In this document: one piece after another, positions 7,780 through 22,508 of the stretch
Position numbering within the stretch: the stretch's first letter is position 1
Layout: the number at the start of each line of letters is the position of its first letter
From: a virus
Reading direction: 5' to 3' (one strand)
Length of the DNA: 25,269 bases
IMG/VR virus record: IMGVR_UViG_3300028044_001506
Location: 1-25,269 of that record
The notes under the pieces: model-generated
What the model was told of the DNA's origin: nothing
The model's database searches: none
The model's input: only the letters and a program-made list of their open reading frames with translations
Translations under genes and position numbers: made by a program

Positions 7780-9108
7780 TCAACCATCCTTCAGAACCGC
7801 CGTCTTTCCCGTCGCCATCTCCCACCGCCGCACGGCCACGTCGCAATAGACCGGGTCCAGTTCCATCGCGAAACAACGACGCCCAGCGCGTTCGGCGGCC
7901 ACGATCTGGGTGCCGGAGCCGCAGAACGGCTCATAGATCAGGTCACCGGGATCCGAGAACGCTGTCAGCACCGCCTCGACCAGCGCCACGGGGAATACGG
8001 CCGGGTGCGATCCGGCTGCGCCCAGCCCGCCCTTGTGTCGCATGATGCGAAAGACGCTGTCGGGGATGCGGTGGCTTTGGATTGCATTGCCGGTTCCGGT
8101 CTTGGCGTGGACGGTGCCGTCGGCCCCGCGCAGCCCACCGCCGCCGAGGGTTTCGCCCGCGTGCTTGGACGGGATGGTCTTGTGCGGTTTGCGCGGGGCG
8201 CGGTTGAAGTGGAAAATGAACTCGTGTGACGGAGCCAGGCGGCCGTTCCAGTCGCCCGGCAGGCCCGGCCCTTGGTCCCAGACATACCAACCGAAGCGCC
8301 GCCAGCCAGATTTGCGCATCCATTCCACCCATCCTTCCCAATAGGGCTGCCATTCGCTGTCACGGTGCACCAAGCCGAGATTGACCAGCAGCTGGGCCTC
8401 GGCGATGACCGGTGCTGCGGTGAACACTCCCTGCATCAGCGCATCCCAATCGCCGACCTTTTCCTTGGCTGCGCCATAGTCGCGCTGCTGGGCGTAAGGT
8501 GGCGAGGTGAACATCAGCGTGGCCTGTTCGCCCTGCATCAGCGTGCCGACAGCGGCCGGATCGGTGGCATCGCCGCAGCAAAGACGGTGCTTGCCAAGCG
8601 CCCAGATGTCGCCCGGCTTGGTGATGGGTTCAGCGGGCGGCTCAGGGATCGCATCTGCCGCGTCGTCAGAAATCTCTTGGCGGTCGTCAGCATCTGCCAG
8701 CAAAGCGTCTAGTTCATCCTCGGGGATCCCGATCAGCCCGAGGTCGAAATCCTCGGCCAGCAGCGTCTGCAGTTCCTGCAGCAGCAGGGCCTCGTCCCAC
8801 CCGCCCAACTCGGTCAGTTTGTTGTCGGCGATGCGATAGGCCCGGCGTTGCGCTTCAGTCAAATGGCCCAGCACGATGACCGGGGCCTCAGACAGGCCGA
8901 GGTGGGCGGCGGCCAGGATGCGACCATGGCCAGCGATCAACTCGCCATCGTCGGCGACCAGCACCGGCACCGTCCAGCCAAACTCGGCCATGCTGGCGGC
9001 GATCTTGGCCACCTGATTGGCGTCGTGGGTTTTTGCGTTGCGGGCGTAGGGTTTCAGCTGGGCCAGCGGCCAGTATTCGATCTGCTTGGGCGAAAGGGGC
9101 GCGTTCAT
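7780..9108 (-). CDS. ParB-like domain / DNA methyltransferase fusion (TSPPY type)
   Basis: This 442-residue fusion has a ParB/Srx-like N-terminal domain (about residues 10-105) with the GELIAGHGR motif (56-63), and a beta-type DNA methyltransferase with the catalytic TSPPY motif (201-205) before the SAM-binding FCGSGT motif (395-400). SPPY-type motifs are common in N4-cytosine enzymes, so m4C is more likely than m6A, but this needs testing. It would modify phage DNA, probably to evade restriction; the ParB domain may give DNA binding or a second activity. The ATG at 9106-9108 was chosen because it overlaps the upstream stop as ATGA; the frame is open further upstream but that part is Arg/Cys-rich shadow. 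It forms a tandem pair with the next gene. Confidence 0.9.
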   Translation of the reverse strand: MNAPLSPKQIEYWPLAQLKPYARNAKTHDANQVAKIAASMAEFGWTVPVLVADDGELIAGHGRILAAAHLGLSEAPVIVLGHLTEAQRRAYRIADNKLTELGGWDEALLLQELQTLLAEDFDLGLIGIPEDELDALLADADDRQEISDDAADAIPEPPAEPITKPGDIWALGKHRLCCGDATDPAAVGTLMQGEQATLMFTSPPYAQQRDYGAAKEKVGDWDALMQGVFTAAPVIAEAQLLVNLGLVHRDSEWQPYWEGWVEWMRKSGWRRFGWYVWDQGPGLPGDWNGRLAPSHEFIFHFNRAPRKPHKTIPSKHAGETLGGGGLRGADGTVHAKTGTGNAIQSHRIPDSVFRIMRHKGGLGAAGSHPAVFPVALVEAVLTAFSDPGDLIYEPFCGSGTQIVAAERAGRRCFAMELDPVYCDVAVRRWEMATGKTAVLKDG

Positions 9109-10364
9109 GCGGCGAGCCTCTTTGCCTTCAGGTCGGCAAAGGTCTCGCCGGTGTCTGCAAGGACAGCGTTGGCGCCGGTGAACTGCTGCCAGCGCTCGAT
9201 GGCAACATCGACATATGCCGGGTTCAATTCGATTCCGAAGCACACGCGCCCGGTGGTTTCCGCTGCGATCAGCGTGGTGCCCGATCCCATGAAGGGTTCA
9301 AACACTGCTTCACCCGGGCTGGAGTTGTTCAGCATGGGGCGGCGCATGCATTCGACAGGTTTTTGCGTGCCGTGGACGGTGGCGGCGTCCTGATCCTTGC
9401 CGGAAATGTGCCACAGGGTGGTCTGCTTGCGGTCCCCGGCCCAATGGCCCTTGCCGGTCTTTTTGACCGCATACCAGCAGGGTTCATGTTGCCAGTGATA
9501 ATCGCCCCGGCTGAGGACAAGGCGGTCCTTGGCCCAAATGATCTGTGACCGGACGGCGAAACCCGCCGCAACCAGACTGTCGGCCACCTCGCCCGCATGC
9601 AGCGCGCCGTGCCAGACATAGGCCACGTCGCCGGGGAACAGCGCCCATGCTTCGCGCCAGTCGGCCCGGTCATCGTTCAGCACCTTGCCGGTTCTTTTGG
9701 TCTTGGCCGCACCCGCCTGGTTGCGCCAGGAGGGATCGTACTCCACGCCATAGGGTGGGTCGGTCACCATCAGCAGCGGGCGAACATCGCCGAGCAGCCG
9801 CTCGACCACATCTGCCGACGTGCTATCGCCGCAGATCAGCCGGTGCGATCCAAGCTGCCACAGGTCGCCCGCCACCGACACCGGCGTGACCGGCGGATCG
9901 GGAATGTCATCTTCGCCCTCGACCGCGCCGCCTTCCGCCTGATCCGGATCGCGCAGCAGCGCGTCCAGATCCTCGTCGGCGATGCCAAGCAACGACAGGT
10001 CGAAATCCTCGGCCAGCAGCCCCGCAATTTCATCGCGCAGCATCGCCTCGTCCCATTCGCCCAGCTCGGTCAACTTGTTGTCGGCGATCCGGTAGGCCCG
10101 TCGTTCGGCTTCGTCGAGGTGACCGAGCCGGATCACAGGCACGTCGGTCAACCCCAGCATGGTCGCCGCCAACACCCGGCCGTGCCCGGCGATCAGTTCC
10201 CCATCGTCAGCCACCAAGCAGGGCACCGTCCAGCCGAACTTGGCCATGCTGGCAGCGATCTTGGCGACCTGGTCCGTGCCGTGGATCTTGGCATTGCGGG
10301 CGTAAGGGCGCAGCCGCTCGAGAGGCCAAGTCTCGATCTGGCTCGGCGCAAAGACCAGGTCCAT
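9105..10364 (-). CDS. ParB-like domain / DNA methyltransferase fusion (DPPY type)
   Basis: This 419-residue protein is a paralogue of its downstream neighbour. The N-terminal ParB-like domain (about 10-105, GHGR at 60-63) is nearly the same in both, while the methyltransferase parts differ. Here the catalytic motif is TDPPYG (201-206), a GTQKPVE segment follows (332-338), and FMGSGTT (358-364) binds SAM. DPPY suggests N6-adenine methylation. GGAAG lies seven bases before the ATG at 10362-10364. It is the first gene of this two-gene unit, and the 646 bases upstream hold the repeat array described separately. Recognition sequence cannot be read from the protein. Confidence 0.92.
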   Translation of the reverse strand: MDLVFAPSQIETWPLERLRPYARNAKIHGTDQVAKIAASMAKFGWTVPCLVADDGELIAGHGRVLAATMLGLTDVPVIRLGHLDEAERRAYRIADNKLTELGEWDEAMLRDEIAGLLAEDFDLSLLGIADEDLDALLRDPDQAEGGAVEGEDDIPDPPVTPVSVAGDLWQLGSHRLICGDSTSADVVERLLGDVRPLLMVTDPPYGVEYDPSWRNQAGAAKTKRTGKVLNDDRADWREAWALFPGDVAYVWHGALHAGEVADSLVAAGFAVRSQIIWAKDRLVLSRGDYHWQHEPCWYAVKKTGKGHWAGDRKQTTLWHISGKDQDAATVHGTQKPVECMRRPMLNNSSPGEAVFEPFMGSGTTLIAAETTGRVCFGIELNPAYVDVAIERWQQFTGANAVLADTGETFADLKAKRLAA

Positions 10365-11010: not shown

Positions 11011-11535
11011 TTACTGTATATTTGGCAAGGCGCTGTCAGATTGGGAGATGACTTGCGGGATGTCAGGCCAAGTGATGGAAAGCGCCGGGTCGTCCCAGCG
11101 GATGCCAGCGGAATGGCCAGGCATGTGGGCTGGGGTGATGTGGTAGAGCAGCGTGGTTTCCGGCTCCAACGTCATGAACCCGTGGGCAAAGCCTTCGGGG
11201 ATATAGATCGCATTCATCCGGCTGACGGAAAGTTCGACCCCGTGCCATCGCCCGTAGGTGGCTCCGGGACGCAGATCGACTGCCACATCGAAAGCCCTGC
11301 CAGAAACGGCGCGGACGAGCTTTGCCTCGGCAAAGGGCGGGCGTTGGAAATGCAAACCACGAAGCGTGAAGGCGGCGGTGTTGGTGGAAAGACTCGTCTG
11401 CACTGGCTGGAATGGGATACCCGCATCACGAAACTCATCGGCGCAGAAGGCCCGGGAAAAAGTGCCCCGGGCATCCGCATGGGGCGTGGCCTCCACCTCG
11501 ACGAGGCCCGGCAGCGGCGTGGGGTTGAAGATCAT
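11011..11535 (-). CDS. NDP-4-keto-6-deoxysugar 3,5-epimerase (RmlC/RfbC family)
   Basis: This 174-residue cupin belongs to the dTDP-4-dehydrorhamnose 3,5-epimerase family. Likely catalytic residues are His62 in TLRGLHFQ and Tyr131 in LLYHITP; IPEGFAHGF (112-120) and RWDDPALSITWP (146-157) are also family signatures. Because the operon makes a CDP sugar, the substrate here is probably a CDP-4-keto sugar and the enzyme may epimerise C3, C5 or only one of them. It is the last gene of the RfbF-RfbG-C-methyltransferase-epimerase operon, overlapping the methyltransferase stop as ATGA. Length is at the short end of the family (about 175-185). Confidence 0.9.
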   Translation of the reverse strand: MIFNPTPLPGLVEVEATPHADARGTFSRAFCADEFRDAGIPFQPVQTSLSTNTAAFTLRGLHFQRPPFAEAKLVRAVSGRAFDVAVDLRPGATYGRWHGVELSVSRMNAIYIPEGFAHGFMTLEPETTLLYHITPAHMPGHSAGIRWDDPALSITWPDIPQVISQSDSALPNIQ

Positions 11536-12782
11536 CGGATTTTCAGCTCGGGGACGGCGGTGACGAAGCGTCCGCCCCAGTCGCGGATCCGGGCCTCTTG
11601 CTCCATCACCTCGGGCGCGATGTTCCAGGGAAGGATCACTAGATAGTCCGGGCGGCGCACGGCGATCTGGACCGGGGCAAGGACGGGGATGTGGCTGCCG
11701 GGCAGAAGGGTGTTCTGCTTGGACGGGTTGCGGTCCACCACGAAGGCGATGCCGTCCTGCGGACCGATCCCGGCGACGTTGAGGAAGGTGTTGCCCTTGG
11801 CCGCGGCGCCATAGCCGGCGACGGTCTTGCCTGCGGCCTTGGCAGACAGAAGGAAGGCGCGGAAATCGGCAAGGATGCGTTCGACTTTCGCTGCAATGCC
11901 GGTGTAGCCCGCTGCGGTATCCAGCCGGAGGGCGTCTTCCTCGGCCTGCACTTCGGCCACTGACGGGCTGATAGGATGGGCGCCCGGATGGCAGCTGAAG
12001 ACACGCAGCGAGCCGCCATGGGTCGGCAGCCGTTCGATGTCGAAGACCTGCAGCGCTGCCTCGCGCATCAGCCGCTGCACGAAGGTCAGCGACAGGTAGG
12101 AATAATGTTCGTGATAGATCGTATCGAACTGCACCTGGGTCAGCAGGCGGGCAAGATGGGGGAATTCGAAGGTGGCCACACCCTGCGGCTTCAGAAGCAC
12201 CTTGAACCCTTCGACAAAGGCGCGGATGTCCGGCACATGGGCCAGCACGTTGTTGGCGGCCATCAGATCGGCCGCATGGCCTTGATCCCGCAGTCGCGCG
12301 GCGCTGGTCGCGTGGAAGAACTCCACCTTGGTCGGCACGCCCTTTTCCTCGGCGAGGCTGGCGGCATGGCCCGCCGGTTCGACGCCAAGGACCGGAATGC
12401 CCGCGGCGACGAAATGCTGCAGAAGGTAGCCGTCGTTCGACGCGACCTCGACCACCTTCGACTGTGGGCCAAGACCGAACCGTGCCGTCATGGCCGTGGC
12501 ATAGCGGCGCGCGTGGTCAACCCAACCCGCGGACCAGGATGAGAGATAGGCATAATCGTGCGAAAAGATCGCGTCGGCAGGCGGGGTTTCAGTCGTCTGG
12601 GCCAGCCAGCAGCCCTCGCAGACCACGACATGCAGGGGATAGCAGCGCTCGGCCTTCAGGGCGGCGGGGTTGCCCATGGGCAAGTAGCTGTTGGCCAGGG
12701 GCGTGGCCCCCAGGTCGACAAGGGACAGCGACACAGGCGCGTGGCAGAAACGGCAAGTGAGAGGTGCGGTCTGGTCAATCAC
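11532..12782 (-). CDS. NDP-sugar C-methyltransferase (TylC3/TcaB9-like)
   Basis: This 416-residue SAM-dependent enzyme has the three-part build of sugar C-methyltransferases: a zinc site from Cys10, Cys13, Cys55 and Cys58; a Rossmann domain with VEVASNDGYLL (111-121); and a C-terminal domain with AGYGAAAKGNTFLN. The residues reported as catalytic in TcaB9-type enzymes fall here at Tyr77, His182 and the YHEH group (223-226), all present. It would add a methyl to C3 of a 4-keto-6-deoxysugar, giving a branched sugar. It overlaps RfbG upstream and the epimerase downstream by four bases each, which fits one pathway: dehydration, C-methylation, epimerisation. Confidence 0.88.
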   Translation of the reverse strand: MIDQTAPLTCRFCHAPVSLSLVDLGATPLANSYLPMGNPAALKAERCYPLHVVVCEGCWLAQTTETPPADAIFSHDYAYLSSWSAGWVDHARRYATAMTARFGLGPQSKVVEVASNDGYLLQHFVAAGIPVLGVEPAGHAASLAEEKGVPTKVEFFHATSAARLRDQGHAADLMAANNVLAHVPDIRAFVEGFKVLLKPQGVATFEFPHLARLLTQVQFDTIYHEHYSYLSLTFVQRLMREAALQVFDIERLPTHGGSLRVFSCHPGAHPISPSVAEVQAEEDALRLDTAAGYTGIAAKVERILADFRAFLLSAKAAGKTVAGYGAAAKGNTFLNVAGIGPQDGIAFVVDRNPSKQNTLLPGSHIPVLAPVQIAVRRPDYLVILPWNIAPEVMEQEARIRDWGGRFVTAVPELKIR

Positions 12783-13831
12783 CGGGCTAGGTCCTGATAT
12801 TGGGCAATCTGGGCGTCAGTCAGCGCAGCGATGTCCTGCCCGGCAGCTTGTGCGGCATACCAATCTGCGGTCAGCTGCAACATGGCTTCAGAGTTCAGCC
12901 TGGGGTGCCAGGGCAATACTGTACCGGCAAGTCCAGGGTCAATGCTGAGCATTGCCATTTCATGCGGGCCAGTGGTCGGATCAAGTCGATGCAGCGCAGG
13001 GCGTTCCATGGCGGTCAGCATGGCATCGGTCAGGGCGGCCACGGTGAAAGACGGTGTTCCCCGCGCCGGACCGAAGTTCAGCGCGGGGGGAAGGCTGCGG
13101 CCTGTCGCCACACCTTGCAGATAGGTGAAATAGCCGTCAAGGCAATCCAGCACATGCTGCCAGGGCCGGGTTGCCCCCGGGTTGCGCAGGACAACTGGTT
13201 CGTTGCGCGACAATGCGCGAACAATATCGGGCACCAGCCGGTCGGCCGAATAGTCGCCCCCGCCGATCACGTTGCCGCCTCGCGCAGTGGCCAGCGCAAC
13301 GCCTTCGGGTGCGAAGAAGGCATCGCGGAACGAGGCGGCGACGATCTCGGTCGCGGCCTTGGAGGCGGAATAGGGATCGTGGCCGCCCAGGGGATCGCCT
13401 TCGGCATAGGCGCGGCCCGTCCCGTCGTTCGCATAGACCTTGTCCGAGGTGACGACGAGGATCGCCTGTGGCCGGGACAGGCGTCGCAGCGCATCCAGGA
13501 GATGCACGGTCCCCATGATGTTCGACCCGAAGGTGCCCACCGGATCGGCATAGGAAAGCCGCACCAGCGGCTGCGCCGCCATATGCAGGACCAGATCTGG
13601 GTCGGCTGTTTTCACGACGGCATCGACCCCGGCAAGGTCGCGCAGGTCGACGAAATGCGAGGCTGCCAGATGGTCCTGCCCCAGCATGTCGAACAGGTTC
13701 GGCCCCGGCAGTGGCGGCAAGGCCAGACCGGTGACCCGCGCCCCCTGTCCCGCCAGCCACCGTGCAGCCCAGGCCCCCTTGAACCCGGTGTGACCGGTCA
13801 AAAGGATCCGTCTTCCGGACCAGAAGCTCAC
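12779..13831 (-). CDS. rfbG: CDP-glucose 4,6-dehydratase
   Basis: This 350-residue short-chain dehydrogenase converts CDP-glucose to CDP-4-keto-6-deoxyglucose, the branch point for CDP-deoxysugars. It shows the NAD-binding [10 protein letters not shown] motif (12-21), which is particular to this enzyme group, TSDKVY (128-133), and the catalytic YSASK (154-158); [10 protein letters not shown] lies in the second half. The GTG at 13829-13831 was chosen because it overlaps the RfbF stop as GTGA and has GGAAGG seven bases upstream; a GTG five codons earlier has a poor ribosome site. Its position after RfbF is the usual order of this pair. Confidence 0.95.
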
Positions 13832-14598
13832 GTCCAGACCTTCCACGGCGCCTGACCCGAAGCCCAGAGGCCTTCCAGATAGTTTCGGTCGCGCAAAGTG
13901 TCCATAGCCTGCCAGAACCCGGGGTGGCGATAGGCCATTAGCTGGCCATCGGCGGCCAGGGTTTCCAGGGGCGCGCCCTCGAACGGGGTGGCGTCGCCTG
14001 CGATCCGGTCAAGCACCTCCGGCTCCAGCACGAAGAACCCGCCGTTGATCCGACCTTCGTCCCCGGGGGGCTTTTCGATGAACCTGGTCACCCGCGCATC
14101 GGCACCGAGGTCCAGCGCCCCATAGCGGCCCGGAGGTGTCACCGCCGCAAGCGTCGCCTGCCGCCCATGTGCCTTGTGAAACGCCACTTCCGCACCAATG
14201 TCGATATTGGCCACGCCATCGCCATAGGTCATGCAGAAGGAGCCGTTCAGATAGGACCGCACCCGCTTCAGCCGTCCTCCGGTCATGCTGCCTTCGCCGG
14301 TGTCGACCAGGGTGACCTTCCAGGGCTCGGCGATCGAGTTGTGATAGGTGATCTCTCCCGTCTGGGCATCGATCGTCACATCCGAGGAATGCAGGATGTA
14401 GTTGGCGAAGTACTCCTTGATCATGTAGCCGCGGTAGCCCAGGCAGATCACGAAATCGGTGATGCCGTGGGCCGCATAGATCTTCATGATGTGCCACAGG
14501 ATCGGCTTGCCACCGATCTCGATCATGGGTTTGGGGCGCAGATGGCTTTCTTCGGAAATCCGCGTGCCATATCCTCCGGCCAGAATGACAGCCTGCAT
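13828..14598 (-). CDS. rfbF: Glucose-1-phosphate cytidylyltransferase
   Basis: This 256-residue enzyme makes CDP-glucose from CTP and glucose-1-phosphate, the first committed step of CDP-sugar synthesis. Family signatures are AGGYGTR (7-13) and [16 protein letters not shown] (20-35), the CTP and sugar-phosphate binding loop, and the CMTYGDG motif with a metal-binding Asp. Length equals the family norm (257). The ATG at 14596-14598 was chosen because GGGGAG lies five bases upstream; the upstream 24 codons are a shadow. It leads the four-gene leftward operon and is divergent from a GT2 gene 72 bases away. Confidence 0.96.
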
Positions 14599-14670
14599 TG
14601 CCGCTCCCCATTTACTGTGGCAAAGACTTACAATAACCAGAGCCGGAAGCACAACTGCCGAAAGCTCCAC
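14599..14670. promoter_or_regulatory. Divergent promoter region between rfbF and a GT2 gene
   Basis: These 72 bases must hold the start signals for the rfbF operon (leftward) and, unless it is read from far upstream, the GT2 gene (rightward). The centre (14610-14636) is AT-rich. TACAAT at 14629-14634 resembles a rightward -10, but no matching -35 was found at the right distance, so specific boxes are not claimed. Confidence 0.35.
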
Positions 14671-15531
14671 ATGCCACGCGTCTCGATCGGTGTCCCTGTC
14701 TACAACGGAGCAAGTCTGATCCGCGAATGTCTGGAGTGCCTTGCTGCGCAGACCTACCAGGACTTTGAGGTCGTCATCTCTGACAATGCTTCAACTGACG
14801 GCACATCGGAGATCTGTGCCGAGATGGCGGCGCGCGACCCGAGGTTCCGGCATCTGCGGCACGCGGCAACGCACGATGTGATGACAAATTTTCTGGCGGC
14901 TCGAGACGCAACAGCAGCACGTCTGTTCATGTGGCGCGCCTTCGATGACGTTGCAGAGCCGGACTATCTTGCCCGACTGGTTGGGTTGCATGACGCACAT
15001 CCCGGATTGCGTCTTGCCGTAGGCACCGTGCAACAGGAGTTTGGCGACGCCAAGGCAGACAAACTCATCCCTTATCAGGCTTCAGATACCGGGCCGGTGG
15101 CACCACGCGTCATGTCTCAACTGTTTCGGGGCGAGGCGAGCTGGTTTTACGGTCTGTGGAGCAGGGCTGCCATCGAAGAATCCTTTTCAGCGGTCCGCTC
15201 TGTCTATCTCGATCCTTGGGGCGGAGATCACCTAAATATTTTTCATACCGCGATCCGCGATGGCATTCGGGGCGACACGCAAGCCATCTTCCGCCAGCGC
15301 ATCATCCCGTCAAGTCGCGGATATGTTGAGCGGCACAAGCCAACCTATCGTGAGATCAGCGGCCGGAATACCCGCTTCCATCAAGCGGCACTGAGCCTGC
15401 TTTCAGACGCCAAGACCGATCCGCTGACAAGTGGCCTGATCCGTGCAGCGATGCCCTTTTATGTTAACAAGCGCTGTCATCGCCTCTTGCGGGTTTTTCA
15501 GGCCCGCGTTCGACAGTTCCGGGGCCGCTGA
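14671..15531 (+). CDS. Family 2 glycosyltransferase
   Basis: This 286-residue GT-A enzyme begins with the GT2 opening strand [10 protein letters not shown] (4-13) and the nucleotide-binding [10 protein letters not shown] (36-45). The metal site is probably FDD in [13 protein letters not shown] (about 89-101). The second half has [12 protein letters not shown] (about 158-169) and DPWGGDHL (about 184-191), typical of the acceptor-side loop. No membrane segment is visible, so it would act at the cytoplasmic face on a lipid-linked sugar. It probably transfers the sugar made by the flanking operons. It is the only plus-strand gene in the island and ends five bases before the convergent O-methyltransferase. 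The upstream open frame is a shadow of rfbF; the ATG at 14671 was chosen by the GT2 start. Confidence 0.88.
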
Positions 15532-15535
15532 ACCA

Positions 15536-16303
15536 TCACTCAACCCGCCGCAGCCAGGCGCCGGGCCAGTGGGTGATGTTCTCGGCCAGTGCGCTTTCGT
15601 TGAAGGGCCAAGCGGGTTGTTCCAGCACAAAGCGGCTGTCGCGGGCGGCGAAATCGGCGGCGGCGCGGGTCGGGTTGTCGGTGGCCCAATCCGGCTGACC
15701 ACGTGGCACATCGGCCAGATCCCACATGATGCCATCGGTGGCGACGATGTAGGATCCCGGGCTGACCATATCAGCATAGGCCAGCAATTCGTCGTGCACA
15801 TGGCTGTAGCTATGGTTGGAGTCGAGGATCACCATAACCTTCTCGCCGGGCCTTATCTGGGCTTGCACTTGCGCGACAGTCGCAGGATCGGTCGAACTGC
15901 CCTCAATCATGGTGATGAATCCGGACAGGGTATGCGCTTCGATCGCGGAGCGGTTATGCGGGCGGATTTCGATGTCGACGCCGACGACACGGCCTTTGTC
16001 CATCGACTTGCACAGCGATGCATAGAAGACCAGCGACCCGCCATGCGCGACGCCGGTCTCGACGATCACATCAGGCTGGACCGCATGGATCACCTCCTGC
16101 ATCCGCAGAACATCCTCAGGCAACTGGATCATCGGTCGACCCATCCAACTGAAGCTGTACTGGTATTTCTGATTCCAGCCGACCCGAACCCATTGCCGCG
16201 ACAAGGCTTCAAAAGATTCTTTGCTGTAGAGATCCAGAGTCCGTTCGGTATCGCCGTCGGTCAGGGTCAGGGTTCGGGTGTCGGTGTCGAGGGTCAGCTT
16301 CAC
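15536..16303 (-). CDS. CmcI/rhamnosyl O-methyltransferase family protein
   Basis: This 255-residue protein belongs to the family named after cephalosporin hydroxylase CmcI, which also contains rhamnosyl O-methyltransferases. Rossmann-type SAM binding is shown by VETGVAHGGSL (81-91) and VVGVDIEIRPHN (107-118). LDSNHSYSHVHDEL (160-173) and VATDGIMWD (187-195) carry the likely metal-binding acidic residues. In a sugar cluster the most probable role is O-methylation of a transferred or nucleotide-bound sugar. The GTG start at 16301-16303 overlaps the upstream stop as GTGA. It is the last gene of the second leftward sugar set. Confidence 0.85.
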   Translation of the reverse strand: MKLTLDTDTRTLTLTDGDTERTLDLYSKESFEALSRQWVRVGWNQKYQYSFSWMGRPMIQLPEDVLRMQEVIHAVQPDVIVETGVAHGGSLVFYASLCKSMDKGRVVGVDIEIRPHNRSAIEAHTLSGFITMIEGSSTDPATVAQVQAQIRPGEKVMVILDSNHSYSHVHDELLAYADMVSPGSYIVATDGIMWDLADVPRGQPDWATDNPTRAAADFAARDSRFVLEQPAWPFNESALAENITHWPGAWLRRVE

Positions 16304-17472
16304 GGGCTACTCCAATCGAGAAGGGTGATCCTGGCGCCTAGCGAGGCCAGTTGATCTGCAATTTCGGCGCGATAATTGGGATTCATCACCAGAACATCCG
16401 TCACTCCCCGGTCGGCGAGAGCGGCCGGGGGAACAATGGCATGTCCGGTGCCGGGGATGTAACGGCCCTGTTTGGCGGGGTTCAGATCGACGACGCAATC
16501 GATGATGGTAGCTTCGGGGTCCACCAGGTTTGCAAATGTAGCCCCTTTGGCCCCGGCACCCCACAGCGCCACCCGGCCTGTTCCGGCCAACTTAGCCAGA
16601 CGTGTGGCCCAATCCCGGCGCAACCGTTCCACTTGGTCGCCATAGGCCAACGCCAGGGCTGAGGTCTCTTGCGGCGTGCGGCGACAGTCAGCCGCGCCTG
16701 GCCTCGCCTCAAGCCAAAGATACTGGCCGCCAAAGATGTGGCGGACTGAAAGCACCTCGAACCCTGCGCGGCGGAACAGGTACGACAGAGACCCTGCGGT
16801 AAAAAGAGAGCAATGCTCGTAGAAGAAGTCCCACAGGATCTCGCCCCTAAGTATCCAGTCGACGCAGGGCGTTTCAAACCAGATTCGGGCATGAGGTGCA
16901 GCAGCCAGCGCCGAACGGACGGCCTTCAAGAGAGCCAATGGGTCGGGCACATGCTCGATGACATGGCGACAGACCACGGCATCGGCGGGCACGTCCAGGC
17001 AGGTCTCGTCATAGAAGCGGCGTTCAAAGCGAAGGCGTCCATCTAGGTCTTGGTCCGGCCCGACATAGCTCGTGTCAAAGCCGATGCCGCTGTTGCCACT
17101 ATCGGGCCAGGTCACAAGCTTGCGCAAGAATAGTCCCTTGCCACAGCCTATCTCGACCACCTGCGCGCCGCGAACGTCACGGTCTTCGACCAATTCGCGC
17201 GCCAAGTCGTCCATATAAGCGTCAAAGGCGGACGAGCAGGACTGGGTGTTGTCGTAGTCGGCACCATAATCGAGCAGGTCTAGCTCAAAGGCCGCGTTCC
17301 AGACGAAATTGCAGTCCTCGCAGACATGTAGGTCCAGCTTGCCTCGTGGCACCATCCGCGCCGATTGGGCACTTGCGACCAGGATGTTCTGCTGGACCGG
17401 AACACTGTCCCGAAGCAAGAACCGGCGGCCAGACTTTGCATCGCAGACCGGACAAGGAAGTAAGTTCGTCAT
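16300..17472 (-). CDS. Second sugar C-methyltransferase-like SAM enzyme
   Basis: This 390-residue enzyme shares the build of the other C-methyltransferase in the window but only distant sequence similarity. It has a zinc site from Cys7, Cys10, Cys51 and Cys54, a SAM motif VVEIGCGKGLFL (105-116), and a C-terminal GAGAKGATFAN domain with VVDLNPAKQGRYIPG. His174 (VIEHVPDP) and Tyr218-Glu219-His220 (FYEHCSLF) fall where TcaB9-type enzymes have catalytic residues, so it is probably active on a sugar, possibly at another carbon or on another substrate. The ATG at 17470-17472 was chosen because it overlaps the reductase stop as ATGA; 19 upstream codons were dropped. Confidence 0.8.
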   Translation of the reverse strand: MTNLLPCPVCDAKSGRRFLLRDSVPVQQNILVASAQSARMVPRGKLDLHVCEDCNFVWNAAFELDLLDYGADYDNTQSCSSAFDAYMDDLARELVEDRDVRGAQVVEIGCGKGLFLRKLVTWPDSGNSGIGFDTSYVGPDQDLDGRLRFERRFYDETCLDVPADAVVCRHVIEHVPDPLALLKAVRSALAAAPHARIWFETPCVDWILRGEILWDFFYEHCSLFTAGSLSYLFRRAGFEVLSVRHIFGGQYLWLEARPGAADCRRTPQETSALALAYGDQVERLRRDWATRLAKLAGTGRVALWGAGAKGATFANLVDPEATIIDCVVDLNPAKQGRYIPGTGHAIVPPAALADRGVTDVLVMNPNYRAEIADQLASLGARITLLDWSSP

Positions 17473-18344
17473 ATCCAGTCCTGTGCATGAAGTTTCAGCC
17501 CCTGCGCAAGGGTCAGGCGTGGCGCCCAACCCAGAGACGTCAGACGCGCGGGCTCTCCGGCCAGCAGCCGGGGCTCGCCAGGACGGGGAGCCGCAAGAGC
17601 AAGTAAAGGGTCAGGGTCAGTGCCTGTCAGCTGCGCCAGACCGGTCACGATCTCGCGCAGCCGCACGGGCACCCCGGAACAGACATTTGCAATCCCATCT
17701 GCGCCGTCGGCCAGTAGCTTCAGCAGCGCAGCACCCGTGTCGCTAACATGCAGGAGATCCCGAAGGGCGTCACCGTCGATGGCAAAGGCAGGCCGTTCAC
17801 CACGCAGGGCGGCCAAGATTGATGGCACCAGCCGGCGCGGATCCTCGCCCGCGCCAAAGCAATGGAAGAGCCGCCCCCAGGCCAGCGGCACTCTGTAAAT
17901 CCTAGCAATGTCGCTGGAAAGCCGCCGCGCCGTGTCTTTGGCGGAGCCATAGAGCGTCGCCGGCAAAGAGGGTGTCAGCTCCTCTCGGCACCAGCCCTGT
18001 GACCAATCGTATTCCGCGCATGATCCGGCCACTACGATCCCTTTGCCACCGGCCTTGCAAAATGCGTCAACCAGTCTCGCAGTTAAAATGGCCCAGCGCG
18101 GGTTGTCGGGATGCGACCAATAGGCCCCGTGATCAGCCTCCCAAGCCAAATGGATCAGGTGACTTGCCCCAGATCGATGGACAATGCTGGTCAGGTCGGT
18201 TTCCTTCAGAAGGTCAACTTCAATGAACTCTACGCCGTCCACAGGGCGGCGACCCGCTGTGATCGCGGGCAGGGCGGCCTCGTTCAGCGCAGCCATAACG
18301 GCAGTGCCGACAAATCCGCTCGCTCCTGTGACGAGTATCCGCAA
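17469..18344 (-). CDS. NAD(P)-dependent sugar epimerase/4-ketoreductase (extended SDR)
   Basis: This extended short-chain dehydrogenase has the dinucleotide motif TGASGFVG (6-13), Ser108 in VAGSCAEYDWSQG, and the catalytic YGSAK (132-136). DLLHVSDTGAALL near residue 215 is a common substrate-domain motif. It resembles nucleotide-sugar 4-ketoreductases (the CDP-abequose synthase type and others), so it may complete the sugar by reducing the C4 keto group; an epimerase is possible. The start is uncertain: TTG at 18342-18344 has AAAGGG eight bases upstream and opens directly on the Rossmann strand; alternatives are GTG at 18353 and ATG at 18389, both with poor ribosome sites. With the TTG start it has 291 residues. 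Confidence 0.85.
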   Translation of the reverse strand: MRILVTGASGFVGTAVMAALNEAALPAITAGRRPVDGVEFIEVDLLKETDLTSIVHRSGASHLIHLAWEADHGAYWSHPDNPRWAILTARLVDAFCKAGGKGIVVAGSCAEYDWSQGWCREELTPSLPATLYGSAKDTARRLSSDIARIYRVPLAWGRLFHCFGAGEDPRRLVPSILAALRGERPAFAIDGDALRDLLHVSDTGAALLKLLADGADGIANVCSGVPVRLREIVTGLAQLTGTDPDPLLALAAPRPGEPRLLAGEPARLTSLGWAPRLTLAQGLKLHAQDWI

Positions 18345-18421
18345 GCGCCGCACCCTTTCTACGCCTGGCCAGGCTGCCCCGCCCCCCATAGCCTGAGGGG
18401 GTCCGCAGAGCAAGGCTAGGC

Positions 18422-19318
18422 CTACCGCCCTCTCAGCCGGAGGGAGAGTGTCTGCGCCAGCGCGTAAAACCGCAGCGACACCCGATGCGGTGCTGCCAGC
18501 GGCGAGGCCAGAGCCGCCCGCGCGCCCGCTCCGTCACGCGCCCGCGCCAGCAGTTTCAATTGGCGCTGCAACAGGTGCTTTGCCGCATCTGGCCGCTGGG
18601 TCAGCCAATCGGCATGGCGCGAAAGGATCATGCCAAAAAAACCCGCCCGCTCGCCAGCCTTGGCGGCGGCAGTCAGATGGCCGCGCTCTCCACCAAGTCC
18701 GTCATGCTGGCGAACCATTACAGCTGGTGCAGGGGCGCGCATTCCCCGCAGTCCGGCCCGGAGCAGTCGAATGGAAAACTCGGTATCTTCATTCACCCGG
18801 ATATCCTCGGCAATTCCACCGGTGGCGAGAAACGCCGCTCTATCAATCCAGAAGCCACAGCCGAGCCCGGCAATTTGGTGACGGAAGGGGCGCACGTCTA
18901 CAACAGGTTTCCCCGGACCTCCGGGATAGGCGCCGATAGATGGCGCTGTCATACCCCGAAAGCTTAAGATCGGTGCAAAGCCATAGTCAGACTGCTGTTC
19001 TAGCACCCAGGTGGGATAGCCGGGTATCATCAGGTCGTCATCGTCCAGAAAAAGGATACGCCGTCCGCGGGCATGCGCCACGCCCCAGTTGCGCGCGCCA
19101 GCAGCGCCAGTGTTTGCTTCGCTGGTAGTGACCCGCAGTCGAGGGTCTAGGTCTGCCATCAAGCTTGCTACAGGCAGCGCGCTGCGGTCATCAACTACCA
19201 GCACTTCTGCGGAAGCTGGCAAGCTGGCGAGCACTGACTGGACGGCCGCTGCAAGAAGCTGCGGCCTGTCCCTAGTCGGGACTATGACCGTCAGTTCCAG
19301 GTCTTGGCTAGGGATCAT
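18422..19318 (-). CDS. Family 2 glycosyltransferase
   Basis: This 298-residue GT-A enzyme shows LTVIVPTRDRP (9-19) at the start, VLVVDDRS (39-46), GARNWGVAHARG (74-85) and the acidic metal site LFLDDDD (89-95). VNEDTEFSIRLLRAG lies near residue 195, the usual ED motif of GT2 enzymes. No membrane span is seen; Arg-rich C-terminal helices may rest on the membrane. It is the first gene of the second leftward sugar set and probably adds a sugar made by the island. The ATG at 19316-19318 was chosen (GGAG nine bases upstream); an ATG at 19360 gives 14 more residues but has no ribosome site. A 77-base gap follows before the reductase. Confidence 0.85.
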   Translation of the reverse strand: MIPSQDLELTVIVPTRDRPQLLAAAVQSVLASLPASAEVLVVDDRSALPVASLMADLDPRLRVTTSEANTGAAGARNWGVAHARGRRILFLDDDDLMIPGYPTWVLEQQSDYGFAPILSFRGMTAPSIGAYPGGPGKPVVDVRPFRHQIAGLGCGFWIDRAAFLATGGIAEDIRVNEDTEFSIRLLRAGLRGMRAPAPAVMVRQHDGLGGERGHLTAAAKAGERAGFFGMILSRHADWLTQRPDAAKHLLQRQLKLLARARDGAGARAALASPLAAPHRVSLRFYALAQTLSLRLRGR

Positions 19319-19349
19319 GCCAGATGGCTCCGCTTCATTTGGGTATTCA

Positions 19350-19553
19350 TCAGCTCTCATTCATGTGGCATCGTGCTGCACCATCCCACTGCCCAATGGC
19401 AAGGGACGATTTCACTTGCTCCAACATACAGGCCGCGGCTGTAGGTGATACCGTTGCTTGATCTGGCAGAATGGTGGGCAGCGGGAATTGCCAACTTACG
19501 ACGCCGAGCGGTTCGCCACTGAGATACTCTACAACCTCGACCGACTTTGGCAC
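19350..19553 (-). CDS. Uncertain small open frame, 67 residues
   Basis: This frame would encode a 67-residue protein from a GTG at 19551-19553. It reads like protein (VEVVEYLSGEPLGVVSWQF near the start, then LPTILPDQATV), with mixed polar and hydrophobic residues and not the Arg/Pro pattern of shadows. The ribosome site is weak (AGGA about 12 bases upstream). It overlaps the possible longer N-terminus of the GT2 gene. No family is recognised. It may be a remnant at the island boundary, or not a gene. Confidence 0.3.
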   Translation of the reverse strand: MPKSVEVVEYLSGEPLGVVSWQFPLPTILPDQATVSPTAAACMLEQVKSSLAIGQWDGAARCHMNES

Positions 19554-19575: not shown

Positions 19576-20316
19576 TTAGCGAACGGCTGCCTCGCTGGAT
19601 TGCTGCGAGTGCGATGCCGCGCCGCCGTCGGTCCGCTTGCCGCCCATTGCGTCGATGTTACCCATTTCCCACGGTCGCACCTTCGGCATCGCCGCCGTCA
19701 CTTCGACCTCCTGCAGCATGCCACCTGCAAGCAAGCCGTCCCGCACCCAGCCCAGCGCCTGCCACCAATCCTCATAGCCGCGTCGGGCGGATGCGATCTG
19801 TTCCGGATGCGACCGCCAAGTTACCGGGCAAGCCAACAACTCAACCGTTCGCCATTTGCCGCGCGTCTTCACCCGCTCGGTGCCGACGACGATGGTCATT
19901 GCCCGCTCGCCATGCTGGTTGGTCTTGATTTCTAACGGAACGCAGCGCGGGACAACGCCCGGCATCCAGTCCGGGGTCAGACCGGCGCGCGCCAGTTCTG
20001 CCACCTGGATCGCCATGCGGATGCCGCCGAGGCGGTCGGGCATGCTTGCGACGGTGGCTGCGATCACCTCGGCATCCGGGTGGGTATAGCTGCCCATTTT
20101 GTGCTGGCCGCCTTCCACCTTGCAGCCAAGCATGGCGCGTTGCAGCAGGACGTATTCGAGGCCGAAGCCGAAACCTTCCTCGGTCACGTCCTTTGGCGGC
20201 AGCAGTTCCAGCTGCGCCTGTTCTACCCGGAATGCCCATTCCAGCGCCGCCTGCACGCCCAGCGCCCGCTTCACTTTCGTGCCGCCTGCGGGCCCAATCC
20301 GCCCATAGACGCTCAT
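19576..20316 (-). CDS. Hypothetical phage protein next to C5 methyltransferase
   Basis: This 246-residue protein is soluble and of unknown function. Its core (about 20-200) has features that look conserved: AALEWAFRVEQAQLEL (24-39), FGFGLEYVLLQRAMLG (about 49-64), THPDAEVIAATVASMPDRLGG and a C-terminal ARRGYEDWWQALGWVR. I recall similar proteins next to methyltransferases in Rhodobacterales prophages but know no function. The last 40 residues are Gly/Ser-rich and probably disordered. The ATG at 20314-20316 has GAGGGG about eight bases upstream, and overlaps as ATGA the stop of the alternative frame inside the methyltransferase gene, not the methyltransferase's own stop at 20329. Confidence 0.75.
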   Translation of the reverse strand: MSVYGRIGPAGGTKVKRALGVQAALEWAFRVEQAQLELLPPKDVTEEGFGFGLEYVLLQRAMLGCKVEGGQHKMGSYTHPDAEVIAATVASMPDRLGGIRMAIQVAELARAGLTPDWMPGVVPRCVPLEIKTNQHGERAMTIVVGTERVKTRGKWRTVELLACPVTWRSHPEQIASARRGYEDWWQALGWVRDGLLAGGMLQEVEVTAAMPKVRPWEMGNIDAMGGKRTDGGAASHSQQSSEAAVR

Positions 20317-20966
20317 GGCTGCATCCCCTCAAACAGGGACATCTGCGCCGGGCGCTGGGCCGGGTCCGTCGGCCGCCAGATCCACGGGCCCGAGGCCATG
20401 GGCAGCAGCGAGAGAGCGCCACGCATGTGCTGCTGCCAGAGGGTGAACTCCGTTGCCGAGCAGGCGCAGAGCGCGTGCCCGATGGGCCAACCCATCAGCC
20501 ATGCGACGAAGATCGGGTTTAGCCGCCGCCGTGATCGTCCCTTCAGGATCCGCCGCGAGACGACGCGCCCATGCGAGGCAATCATCGAAGCCCAGAGCGG
20601 GCGCGAGATCGGGGTGTGCGGTGAGAACCGCGCGCCATCCATCGTGATCGCCGGGTCCGGGCGGGTGAAGCCCTGTTCCGCTCGGTAATGCAGGATATCC
20701 AGCCGGGACTTCCCATCGGCCCCGGTCACGCTGGCCTCGCTGGATCCTTTCCAGTTCTGCGCCGCTGGGGTTGGCCACTGCGCCGCCTGCGCTGGCAAGG
20801 GTGGCGTCCCGCCCGAACCATAGCTCTGGCCCGGCCCACCCTTCGCGCCATCGGTCGCTTTCGGCGTCGACCAGTTGATGATACCCAGCGCCAACGCTTC
20901 CGCCTTGCGGGTGAAGTCGCTGTTCCCTGCCGGGTTGTAATTGGCGGTGCCGGGATGCAGGCTCAT
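20313..20966 (-). CDS. Alternative-frame coding region overlapping the C5 methyltransferase
   Basis: In the +1 frame relative to the methyltransferase, 217 codons from ATG 20964-20966 to 20313 read like a real protein. It carries repeated W(S/P)TP motifs: WPTP just before the Met, NWSTPKATDG (31-40) and QWPTPAAQNWKGSS (63-76). It also has DGKSRLDILHYRAEQ, and near the end LNPIFVAWLMGWPIG (149-163) and GPWIW (193-197). WPTPxAxDxxG repeats and the LMGWPIG segment are familiar from phage DNA methylase-associated proteins. Its stop overlaps the next start as ATGA. There is no clear ribosome site at 20966, so it might be reached by frameshift or not made. The first half of this frame (to 21482) is Ser/Pro-rich shadow. 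Confidence 0.45.
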   Translation of the reverse strand: MSLHPGTANYNPAGNSDFTRKAEALALGIINWSTPKATDGAKGGPGQSYGSGGTPPLPAQAAQWPTPAAQNWKGSSEASVTGADGKSRLDILHYRAEQGFTRPDPAITMDGARFSPHTPISRPLWASMIASHGRVVSRRILKGRSRRRLNPIFVAWLMGWPIGHALCACSATEFTLWQQHMRGALSLLPMASGPWIWRPTDPAQRPAQMSLFEGMQP

Positions 20967-21486
20967 CGGTGTGGGCCAGGATGAAGATCCGGAGCCGCTG
21001 GTGCGGCGCGCCGACTTCTGCCGCGCTGAACAGGCCCGCCGCAGGCGTGTAGCCCATGCGCCAAAGCTCTCGCAGAACGGATTCGAGGCCGAGGGTGACG
21101 TGACCCGCGACATTTTCGAGAAAGACCCATTCGGGGCCGCACTCGACGATGACGCGAGCGACCTCTGGCCAGAGATGGCGCGGGTCCTCGGCCCCGCCGC
21201 GCTTTCCGGCCGCGCTGAACGGCTGGCACGGATATCCGGCGAGGACGATGTCGAAGGCGCCGCGGAAGGGCTGGGCATCGAAGCTGCGAAGATCATCCCA
21301 GATCGGGGCTGGGGCGAAATACCCTGCGCGCTGGGCGGCGATGAGAACGGCGCGGGGCCAGTCCTCCCACTCGACGAAGGCGCGGGTGTGGAAACCGGGT
21401 TCGGCGAGCATGACGCCCAGATCCAAGCCTCCGCCGCCTGCGCAGAGGGACAATCCGTGCCGGGGACGTGACACCACACCATTCAC
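20329..21486 (-). CDS. DNA (cytosine-5) methyltransferase
   Basis: This 385-residue enzyme has the motifs of C5 methyltransferases in order: SAM motif SLCAGGGGLDLG (13-24), acidic VEW (38-40), catalytic GYPCQPFS (84-91, Cys87), FLENV (122-126), QRLRIFIL (163-170), then a variable recognition region and LLGNGVHPLAAA (342-353) as motif X. It would methylate phage DNA at an unknown site, probably against host restriction. The GTG start (21484-21486) overlaps the initiator stop as GTGA, with GAGGGG about four bases upstream. From about residue 170 the DNA also encodes a plausible second frame. The gene belongs to the early leftward operon. Confidence 0.92.
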   Translation of the reverse strand: MNGVVSRPRHGLSLCAGGGGLDLGVMLAEPGFHTRAFVEWEDWPRAVLIAAQRAGYFAPAPIWDDLRSFDAQPFRGAFDIVLAGYPCQPFSAAGKRGGAEDPRHLWPEVARVIVECGPEWVFLENVAGHVTLGLESVLRELWRMGYTPAAGLFSAAEVGAPHQRLRIFILAHTDEPASRHRQLQPGREQRLHPQGGSVGAGYHQLVDAESDRWREGWAGPELWFGRDATLASAGGAVANPSGAELERIQRGQRDRGRWEVPAGYPALPSGTGLHPPGPGDHDGWRAVLTAHPDLAPALGFDDCLAWARRLAADPEGTITAAAKPDLRRMADGLAHRARALRLLGNGVHPLAAAHAWRSLAAAHGLGPVDLAADGPGPAPGADVPV

Positions 21487-22508
21487 CGCACCCCTCGCAG
21501 CCGGAGGCGCTCGGGGGTGACCAAGCCGCGCACCAGCATCAGGTCGCGGATGCTGTTGTTGATCGCGCTGACCGGCAGGAAGCCGTCGGCGTTGACCATC
21601 TTGGCGTAGAACGCCGCCTTTTCATCGTCGCTCAGCCGGGGAGGGTCTTCGCGCTTGCGCCGCCGCTTTGCCTTTTGGCTTTTGGCCGTCGCAATGGCCG
21701 TCTGTGCATCGCGCTGGACGGCGCGTTCCATGAACCTGTCGAGGGCCTTGGGGCCATCAGGCGGATTGGGATGATCGGTACGGCTCTCAAGGGCGACCTC
21801 GATGATCCGCTTCCGCGACAACCCGATATCGTCGATCCAGCGGCGAACATGGGTGCGGGCTGGCCAACCCTGCCACCAGGCGGGGAGGGTGGCATTGGCG
21901 GCGAAGCCCAGCGCCGCAAGCAGTTCTGCGAAGAACCGATCAAATTCGGCCTCACGCGCTTGCGCGTCCTCCTCCTCCTTTACTGGTTTACTTAGTGGTT
22001 CTCTTACAAGGTTAGTGTCCGGATTCCGGACACGGCTTTCGGCATTTTCCGGACACGGGTCGGGGCAAAATCCGGACACGGGTTCCTGCGGATAGCCGTG
22101 TGCGATCTCCGGACACGGCTCGACCAGATCAGCTGGGATGGTGGCGATTTCACACGCAGTTTCAGCATCATGGCCGAAGTGCAAAAGCCCGTGTCCGATT
22201 TCCGGACATGGCTCCGGATCATGTGGTGCAAAGCCTTCCTCGAACCCCAAGATGTAGCGTGTCGGCAGCTGGCGCTTGGTGACGGGATCGATGCGCGGCA
22301 CCCGCCGCAGCAGCTGTTCCGCCTCCAGCCGGTCGAGATGCTCGTTCAGGGTGGACCGGCTGATTTCGCAATCATGGGCCAGCCGATCCTGCGACGGGAA
22401 GCAACCGAAGTCGGGGTTGAAACGATCACAGAGGTGCCAGAGCACGATCTTGGTCGTCGGCTTCAGCCCGCGCCGCTGGATGGCCCAGTTGGTGGCGTCG
22501 TGGCTCAT
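21483..22508 (-). CDS. Winged-helix replication-initiator-like protein (lambda O analogue)
   Basis: This 341-residue protein has an N-terminal winged helix (about 15-75) with KIVLWHLCDRFN, then FPSQDRLAHDCEISRSTLNEHLDRLE, the recognition helix region, typical of HTH_36-type phage replication proteins. The middle (about 95-165) is Pro/Cys/Glu-rich and low in order. The C-terminal part (about 175-320) is helical and charged, with SQKAKRRRKRED and KAAFYAKMVNAD, and may bind a helicase or loader. Five copies of TCCGGACA(C/T)GG lie inside the gene in different frames, as lambda ori lies in gene O, so an initiator role is inferred. The ATG (22506-22508) overlaps the VRR-NUC stop as ATGA and has GGAGGG seven bases upstream. 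A long upstream open frame is shadow. Confidence 0.75.
   Translation of the reverse strand: MSHDATNWAIQRRGLKPTTKIVLWHLCDRFNPDFGCFPSQDRLAHDCEISRSTLNEHLDRLEAEQLLRRVPRIDPVTKRQLPTRYILGFEEGFAPHDPEPCPEIGHGLLHFGHDAETACEIATIPADLVEPCPEIAHGYPQEPVSGFCPDPCPENAESRVRNPDTNLVREPLSKPVKEEEDAQAREAEFDRFFAELLAALGFAANATLPAWWQGWPARTHVRRWIDDIGLSRKRIIEVALESRTDHPNPPDGPKALDRFMERAVQRDAQTAIATAKSQKAKRRRKREDPPRLSDDEKAAFYAKMVNADGFLPVSAINNSIRDLMLVRGLVTPERLRLRGVR
21979..22212. repeat. Iteron cluster and AT-rich stretch, candidate replication origin
   Basis: TCCGGACACGG begins at 22025, 22048, 22071 and 22108, and TCCGGACATGG at 22201. Start-to-start spacings are 23, 23, 37 and 93 bases. The first copy forms a perfect 19-base inverted repeat with GTGTCCGGA (22015-22033); the last is paired with an imperfect inverse copy at 22187-22198. 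The stretch 21979-22016 is about 66% A+T in a GC-rich window. Spacing of 23 is not a multiple of three, and the copies are read in different frames, so the DNA itself seems to be under selection. Confidence 0.75.

Follow-up and report, generated by a model that had tools for sequence, protein, structure and literature searches.

A probable lambda-O-style replication origin inside the initiator gene of a rhodobacterial prophage

We propose that a rhodobacterial prophage carries a lambda-O-style replication origin inside its own initiator gene, a reading to which, working from sequence comparison, we give a probability of roughly 0.9. The proposal is built on the anatomy of the site, on selection acting on the DNA of its iterons and AT-rich element, on covariation of the initiator's recognition helix with the iterons and on the exchange of cassettes between relatives. 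The DNA analysed, here called the window, is an IMG/VR virus record of 25,269 bases, with genes for terminase, portal and head protease on its left side and an integrase at its right end. It is a 25-kb fragment of a rhodobacterial prophage and a second origin may therefore lie outside it.

An iteron array within the initiator gene

The first-pass annotation of the window had picked out five copies of TCCGGACA(C/T)GG in a winged-helix gene, three of them 23 bases apart, and these stand: exact TCCGGACAYGG is found at 22025, 22048, 22071, 22108 and 22201 on the plus strand and nowhere in the 25,269 bases outside 22025-22211. The copies start at codon positions 0, 0, 1, 0 and 2, so that all three frames are used, and encode CPE, CPE, VSG, CPE and VRN. 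In 5,000 synonymous-codon permutations, which preserve both the protein and the codon usage, 2,703 runs gave no copy, 1,921 gave one, 351 gave two and 25 gave three, while none reached five. This agrees with the earlier suggestion that it is the DNA and not the protein that is conserved. With two mismatches allowed the pattern falls to chance level (23 matches against 21 expected) and the signal is therefore that of exact, clustered copies. A weaker control, based on the multiplicity of 10-mers alone, was less extreme, with 1 of 60 order-2 Markov sequences also holding four copies within 240 bp, and the argument therefore rests on the codon test and on the relatives. Three of the copies are inverted repeats and two are half-sites (Table 1).

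Table 1. Position of the initiator gene and of the elements of the candidate origin in the window.
Feature	Position	Strand	Basis
O-like replication initiator gene, 341 aa (P0001)	21483..22508	-	phrog_345, 7e-31; relatives keep the MSH start
Predicted winged-helix DNA-binding domain, residues 1-95, with the recognition helix at 51-63 and the wing strands at 67-73 and 80-87	22224..22508	-	HTH_36, 2e-14; AlphaFold2
Iteron 1, imperfect dyad CCATGTCCGGAAATCGGACACGG, 6/8 arm pairs	22189..22211	-	exact copy and arm pairing
Iteron 2, imperfect dyad CCGTGTCCGGAGATCGCACACGG, 6/8 arm pairs	22096..22118	-	exact copy and arm pairing
Iteron 3, half-site CCGTGTCCGGA, 2/8 arm pairs	22059..22081	-	conserved 23-bp spacing
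Iteron 4, half-site CCGTGTCCGGA, 2/8 arm pairs	22036..22058	-	conserved 23-bp spacing
Iteron 5, complete dyad CCGTGTCCGGAATCCGGACAC, 8/8 arm pairs, adjoining the AT-rich element	22013..22035	-	dyad of at least 6/8 pairs in 146/150 relatives
AT-rich element with three repeats in 12-bp phase, TAACCTTGTAAGAGAACCACTAAGTAAACCAGTAAAGG; putative DNA unwinding element	21977..22014	-	AT content, codons, relatives
Helical C-terminal domain, residues 173-341	21486..21992	-	AlphaFold2 model

The AT-rich element

The AT-rich stretch of about 38 bases that had been described after the repeats on the coding strand is also present. It is the AT-richest 38-mer of the gene (25/38, against 36% AT overall), though the window has two further sites of slightly higher AT content. 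Three TAA triplets in a 12-bp phase follow the last iteron on its 3' side in 133 of 160 relatives. Codon choice within the element is strongly biased when compared with the rest of the same genes. Valine is encoded by GTA in 269 of 269 cases inside the element and in 4% elsewhere, and the same holds for arginine AGA/AGG (97% against 8%), leucine CTT/CTA/TTA (99% against 14%) and serine AGT (82% against 5%). In two relatives (L198 and L200) the DNA of the element (ETLTSNRTSKGTGN) is kept in another frame, where it is read as TSNRTSKGTGN rather than VREPVREPV. Elements shifted in this way, with TSNRTSKGTGN-like products, are seen in L198, L200, L385, L396, L413 and L439, all of which encode initiators of the Arg51/Arg56 type.

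Beyond these relatives, Serratia phage Parlo and Erwinia phage Pavtok have AAACCAGTAA-like repeats at the matching position of the gene, with no obvious 23-bp iterons. The O-like/HTH genes L370, L371 and L372 of gammaproteobacterial phages (Parlo, Vibrio D65 and Pavtok, respectively) were noted to carry AACCAGTAA- or AACCAGTCA-like repeats at a corresponding place in the gene, again with no obvious 23-bp iterons. A generic scan of viral contigs for the 12-mer was too unspecific, returning mostly tail-fibre-like repeats; 22 of its 91 occurrences, at about 15 loci, fell in O-like winged-helix genes.

Conservation of the iterons amongst relatives

Scans of viral and genome contigs, later extended, gave more than 200 distinct related genes. 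In the first scans the best trio of repeats was spaced by exactly 23 bp, at the same place in the gene, in 110 of 114 distinct relatives. The wider set has 170 genes with a clear 23-bp trio, of which 160 could be placed in a common register, and in 157 of these 160 the three units lie in frames 1, 0 and 2; repetition at the level of the protein cannot produce such an arrangement. Loss of the repeats from genes that keep the protein, which the first-pass annotation had considered for related phages, was not found among close relatives.

The sequence of the repeat varies between clades, is uniform within a gene and switches together across the reading frames. More than 10 types were seen, including CCGTGTCCGGA, CCGTGTCCGAA, CCATCTCCGGA, CCGTGTCTCAA, CCGTGTCGCAA, CCGTGTCCAGA, CCGTGTCCAAA, CCGAGTCCAGA, CCGTCGGCAAA and CCGACTCCGG. 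In almost every gene the last unit is a full dyad, the mirror base of which tracks base 5 (G:C in 104 of 150 genes and C:G in 41 of 150), and the two units preceding it are mostly half-sites. A rhizobial-type branch (L052, L053, L178-L196 and phage PPF1, L373), with the helix DERSVRR, has a different and apparently reversed iteron, TTGAACCGGACTC; it keeps the 23-bp spacing and the same AT-rich element and stands outside the specificity rule described below. The idea that prophages of the same type exclude one another from a genome was discarded, as Pseudorhodobacter aquimaris has two loci of the CCGTGTCCGGA type and two of the CCATCTCCGGA type.

Eleven R. capsulatus phages (RcBaka, RcKemmy and RcOceanus among them) carry a member of the family that is annotated only as a helix-turn-helix protein, and neither "iteron" nor "origin of replication" appears in the paper that describes the R. 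capsulatus phage genomes (PMC8601537).

The initiator protein

The 341-residue protein matches PHROG 345, "replication initiation O-like", and its first 70-200 residues match further PHROG families of replication initiation. Pfam returns HTH_36 and not RepA_N. Lambda O also matches phrog_345 (5e-17), whereas a direct profile comparison of the two proteins with hhalign found no detectable similarity (E 0.23, probability 0.3%). The homology to lambda O is thus indirect, by way of bridging PHROG families.

A model of the protein was built in AlphaFold2 with 50 relatives, with low overall confidence (mean pLDDT 68). It predicts a winged helix, with helices at residues 3-11, 17-28, 40-47 and 51-63 and strands at 67-73 and 80-87, followed by a linker (97-172) with a pLDDT below 50 that is predicted to be disordered and is encoded by the DNA of the iterons and of the AT-rich element, and then by a helical C-terminal domain. 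In the mechanism proposed below, this last domain would recruit the replisome. Searching with the low-confidence full model in Foldseek gave general winged helices only, the best being the DnaD N-terminal domain with an E value of 0.04, and a sequence search of the PDB found no relatives of the initiator.

Residues of the recognition helix covary with the iteron

It had been anticipated that the wing of the protein and the repeat would change together. Covariation is indeed found, mainly, though, at residues 51 and 56 of the recognition helix, with a weaker signal at residue 80 by the wing. Amongst 49 non-redundant genes residue 51 is the most informative for base 5 of the iteron and residue 56 for bases 8, 9 and 10, and base 3 correlates best with residue 80, which is beside the wing. 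The predicted recognition helix starts at residue 51, as would be expected if residues 51 and 56 contact the DNA. In the pooled genes Arg51 is paired with G5 and any other residue with C5 in 199 of 199 cases, where base 5 can be no other than G or C in the word search that defines the repeats, and Arg56 is paired with (T/G)CA at bases 8-10, also in 199 of 199.

The rule was fixed in writing before the loci of the later scans were examined. Sixty-three genes lay outside the derivation, and the 49 with at least three recognisable copies were scored; 14 of the 63 have no readable repeat, so the rule is one for readable genes only. All 49 fit, with 28 Arg51/G5 and 21 non-Arg51/C5 pairs, and with 6 Arg56/TCA and 43 other/C(A/G)N pairs, although, as about 12 of the 63 had been viewed informally before the rule was written, and were not used to derive it, the set is not strictly blind. 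Leucine, asparagine and serine at position 51 were not foreseen, and pair with C as isoleucine and valine do.

A tree calculated with the recognition helix left out requires 6 changes each for base 5 and for Arg51, and 7 each for the 8-10 motif and for Arg56. On its supported branches the independent pairs are concordant in 2 of 2 cases for residue 51 and base 5 and in 4 of 4 for residue 56 and bases 8-10, or in 6 of 6 and 7 of 7 when all branches are counted, though with so few securely independent events neither pair reaches significance by the tree test alone. A contrast that comes close to a single residue is provided by L047, with Ser50 and T8, against L045 and L046, with His50 and G8. 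Pro50 was rejected as the determinant of A at base 4 because L163 and L165 combine it with T4, and Tyr57 fits some cases but not all. We found no published description of this residue-to-base rule among the open-access papers searched.

Exchange of the binding domain together with the iterons

When the window is aligned with three relatives of the CCATCTCCGGA type (L079, L019 and L092), identity is mostly 80-95%, or around 90%, both immediately before the gene and beyond nucleotides 480-500, and only 36-76% over about nucleotides 50-450 of the gene, which hold the binding domain and the iterons. From this pattern of identity the binding domain and the iterons appear to have moved as a single cassette between genes that kept their AT-rich element and C-terminal domain. 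Linked exchange of this type is therefore one cause of the covariation between protein and repeat; the changes that recur on the tree indicate a contribution from substitution as well.

We would give even odds to a broader proposal with two parts. In the first, the initiators would form a natural specificity system that can be read, with residue 51 specifying base 5 and residue 56, together with 50, 53 and 57, specifying bases 8-10, such that the type of origin could be predicted from the protein. In the second, the 12-mer GTAAnnGAACCA, which is common to the iteron types and to several C-terminal modules and is apparently present in some gammaproteobacterial phages, would be recognised in single-stranded form by one shared factor.

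Other possible roles for the repeats

If the protein were a transcription regulator, the repeats could be operators for its autoregulation and no origin need be present. The winged-helix domain is related to regulator families, and for many relatives the sole annotation is that of an HTH DNA-binding protein. However, the sites lie in the middle of the gene and not at a promoter, in a pattern without a further exact copy in the window, their array stops at a fixed AT-rich element in which rare codons are forced, and PHROG places the protein among replication initiators; we regard this reading as very unlikely. Plasmid iteron arrays may act in control or partition. With that precedent, and with ParB-like fusion genes at 7780-10364, the array might instead be a centromere-like site for partition or copy control that shares the specificity of the initiator, replication starting elsewhere. 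Those genes, though, are methyltransferase fusions 12 kb away, the adjoining conserved 12-mer AT-rich element suits unwinding and the protein that covaries with the sites is the one that contains them, making such a role highly improbable. Selection on protein motifs (CPExGHG, VREP), with the DNA repeats as a by-product, can virtually be dismissed, since, although three of the five copies code for CPE and most relatives have VREP in frame, all three frames are used in nearly every relative, synonymous shuffles never gave five copies, the AT-rich DNA is kept in another frame in L198 and L200 and the linker is predicted to be disordered.

Proposed mechanism and relation to known systems

For the in-gene origin that we favour, the following sequence of events may be envisaged. 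Induction of the prophage would lead to synthesis of the initiator, the N-terminal winged helix of which would bind the five iterons, as dimers on the dyads and cooperatively on the half-sites. Arg51 would contact the G at base 5 of the iteron, with residue 56 and its neighbours contacting bases 8-10. The bound assembly would then strain and melt the adjoining AT-rich element with its 12-mer repeats, and the C-terminal domain would recruit the host helicase or primase, allowing replication to initiate.

In-gene origins are textbook lambda biology. To our knowledge the way in which O-type initiators read their iterons, and the divergence of origin types inside a coding gene, are poorly worked out. 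The lambda origin is the closest model for the one described here. It occupies bases 39034-39160 in gene O and has four iterons of 18 bp and an AT-rich stretch of 38 bp (PMC3349717), the iterons starting 20, 24 and 23 bp apart at nucleotides 348-415 of the gene in the lambda record. Both systems have an N-terminal DNA-binding domain, iterons within the gene in several frames, an AT-rich stretch on their 3' side and a C-terminal domain, and the lambda-like arrangement proposed earlier is matched in order and in geometry, and further supported by the O-like family assignment and by retention of the repeats in relatives. The designs differ, however. The lambda iterons are four similar dyads, whereas here there are three dyads and two half-sites, and the lambda stretch is A-rich (78% AT), whereas the element here is 57-66% AT and phased by 12 bp. 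Unlike lambda, the window has no recognisable P gene, the C-terminal domain of the initiator is different and there is no direct sequence similarity. With homology that is indirect, no recognised P-like loader and different designs of iteron and unwinding element, the system is best filed as a variant of the lambda type.

Similarities are also seen with plasmids and satellites. In the RepA_N plasmid pSK41 the Rep boxes are central in rep and are bound by the N-terminal winged helix, the linker is encoded by the origin and the C-terminal domain of Rep contacts DnaG primase (PMC5703833). The rep region of pPR9 is capable of autonomous replication, and the chimeric Rep of this plasmid has an N-terminal domain of Pfam PF13730 (HTH_36), a family shared with the initiator here (PMC5703833). 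As in our prophage the origin lies within the initiator gene; these are, however, staphylococcal plasmids with antisense-RNA copy control, and a code for iteron types is not described in the parts of that work cited here. In PLE satellites, according to the sections cited, the RepA_N DNA-binding domain covaries with the origin iterons and the C-terminus is conserved, pointing to module swapping (PMC8263062). The PLE origin is noncoding, as opposed to in-gene here, and those sections give no residue-to-base rule. The oriV of RK2 has an AT-rich element of four phased 13-mers beside its iterons, one strand of which is bound by TrfA (PMC4081077). Phased short AT-rich repeats beside iterons are common to both, a parallel that we treat as a lead and not as a result; TrfA has two winged-helix domains, and single-strand binding by the initiator here is putative.

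The family offers more than 10 natural origin types, a rule that holds in 199 of 199 genes, clear cassette exchanges and contrasts of nearly a single residue. Through it the origin can probably also be placed in many rhodobacterial prophages, as well as in the Rhodobacter phages in which this gene carries only a helix-turn-helix annotation.

Genes surrounding the origin

Neither a helicase nor a helicase loader was recognised among the genes of the window. The neighbours of the O-like gene are a VRR-NUC nuclease, a C5 methyltransferase and phrog_9306, the function of which is unassigned; phrog_9306 was considered as an analogue of lambda P and no supporting evidence was found. Control of the iterons through CCGG by the C5 methyltransferase is also unlikely, as its gene is optional and is also found beside iteron types that are free of CCGG (L024 and L027).

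Directly after the O-like gene two frames on the same strand overlap almost completely (20313-21486, minus strand). The first encodes the C5 DNA methyltransferase (21486-20329, 385 aa) and the second a 389-residue product (21482-20313) that matches phrog_27243 as well as phrog_1008, "DNA methyltransferase". This second frame contains exactly one stop in 59 relatives, taken to be the stop of the O gene at the first codon, as in the window, whereas about 4 stops arise when the methyltransferase codons are randomised synonymously, with a chance of about 1% of having none. From these counts the two look like a true overlapping gene pair.

The ParB-like genes (minus strand) are two adjacent, overlapping paralogues, each with a ParB-like domain and a DNA methyltransferase domain. 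Between them and the origin, at 11011-19360 on the minus strand, is a cassette of genes for sugar and methyl transfer, encoding a dTDP-sugar epimerase, two nucleotide-sugar epimerases, an NTP transferase, C-methyltransferases, a CmcI-like methyltransferase and a glycosyltransferase 2, which probably has a role in the modification of the surface or of DNA.
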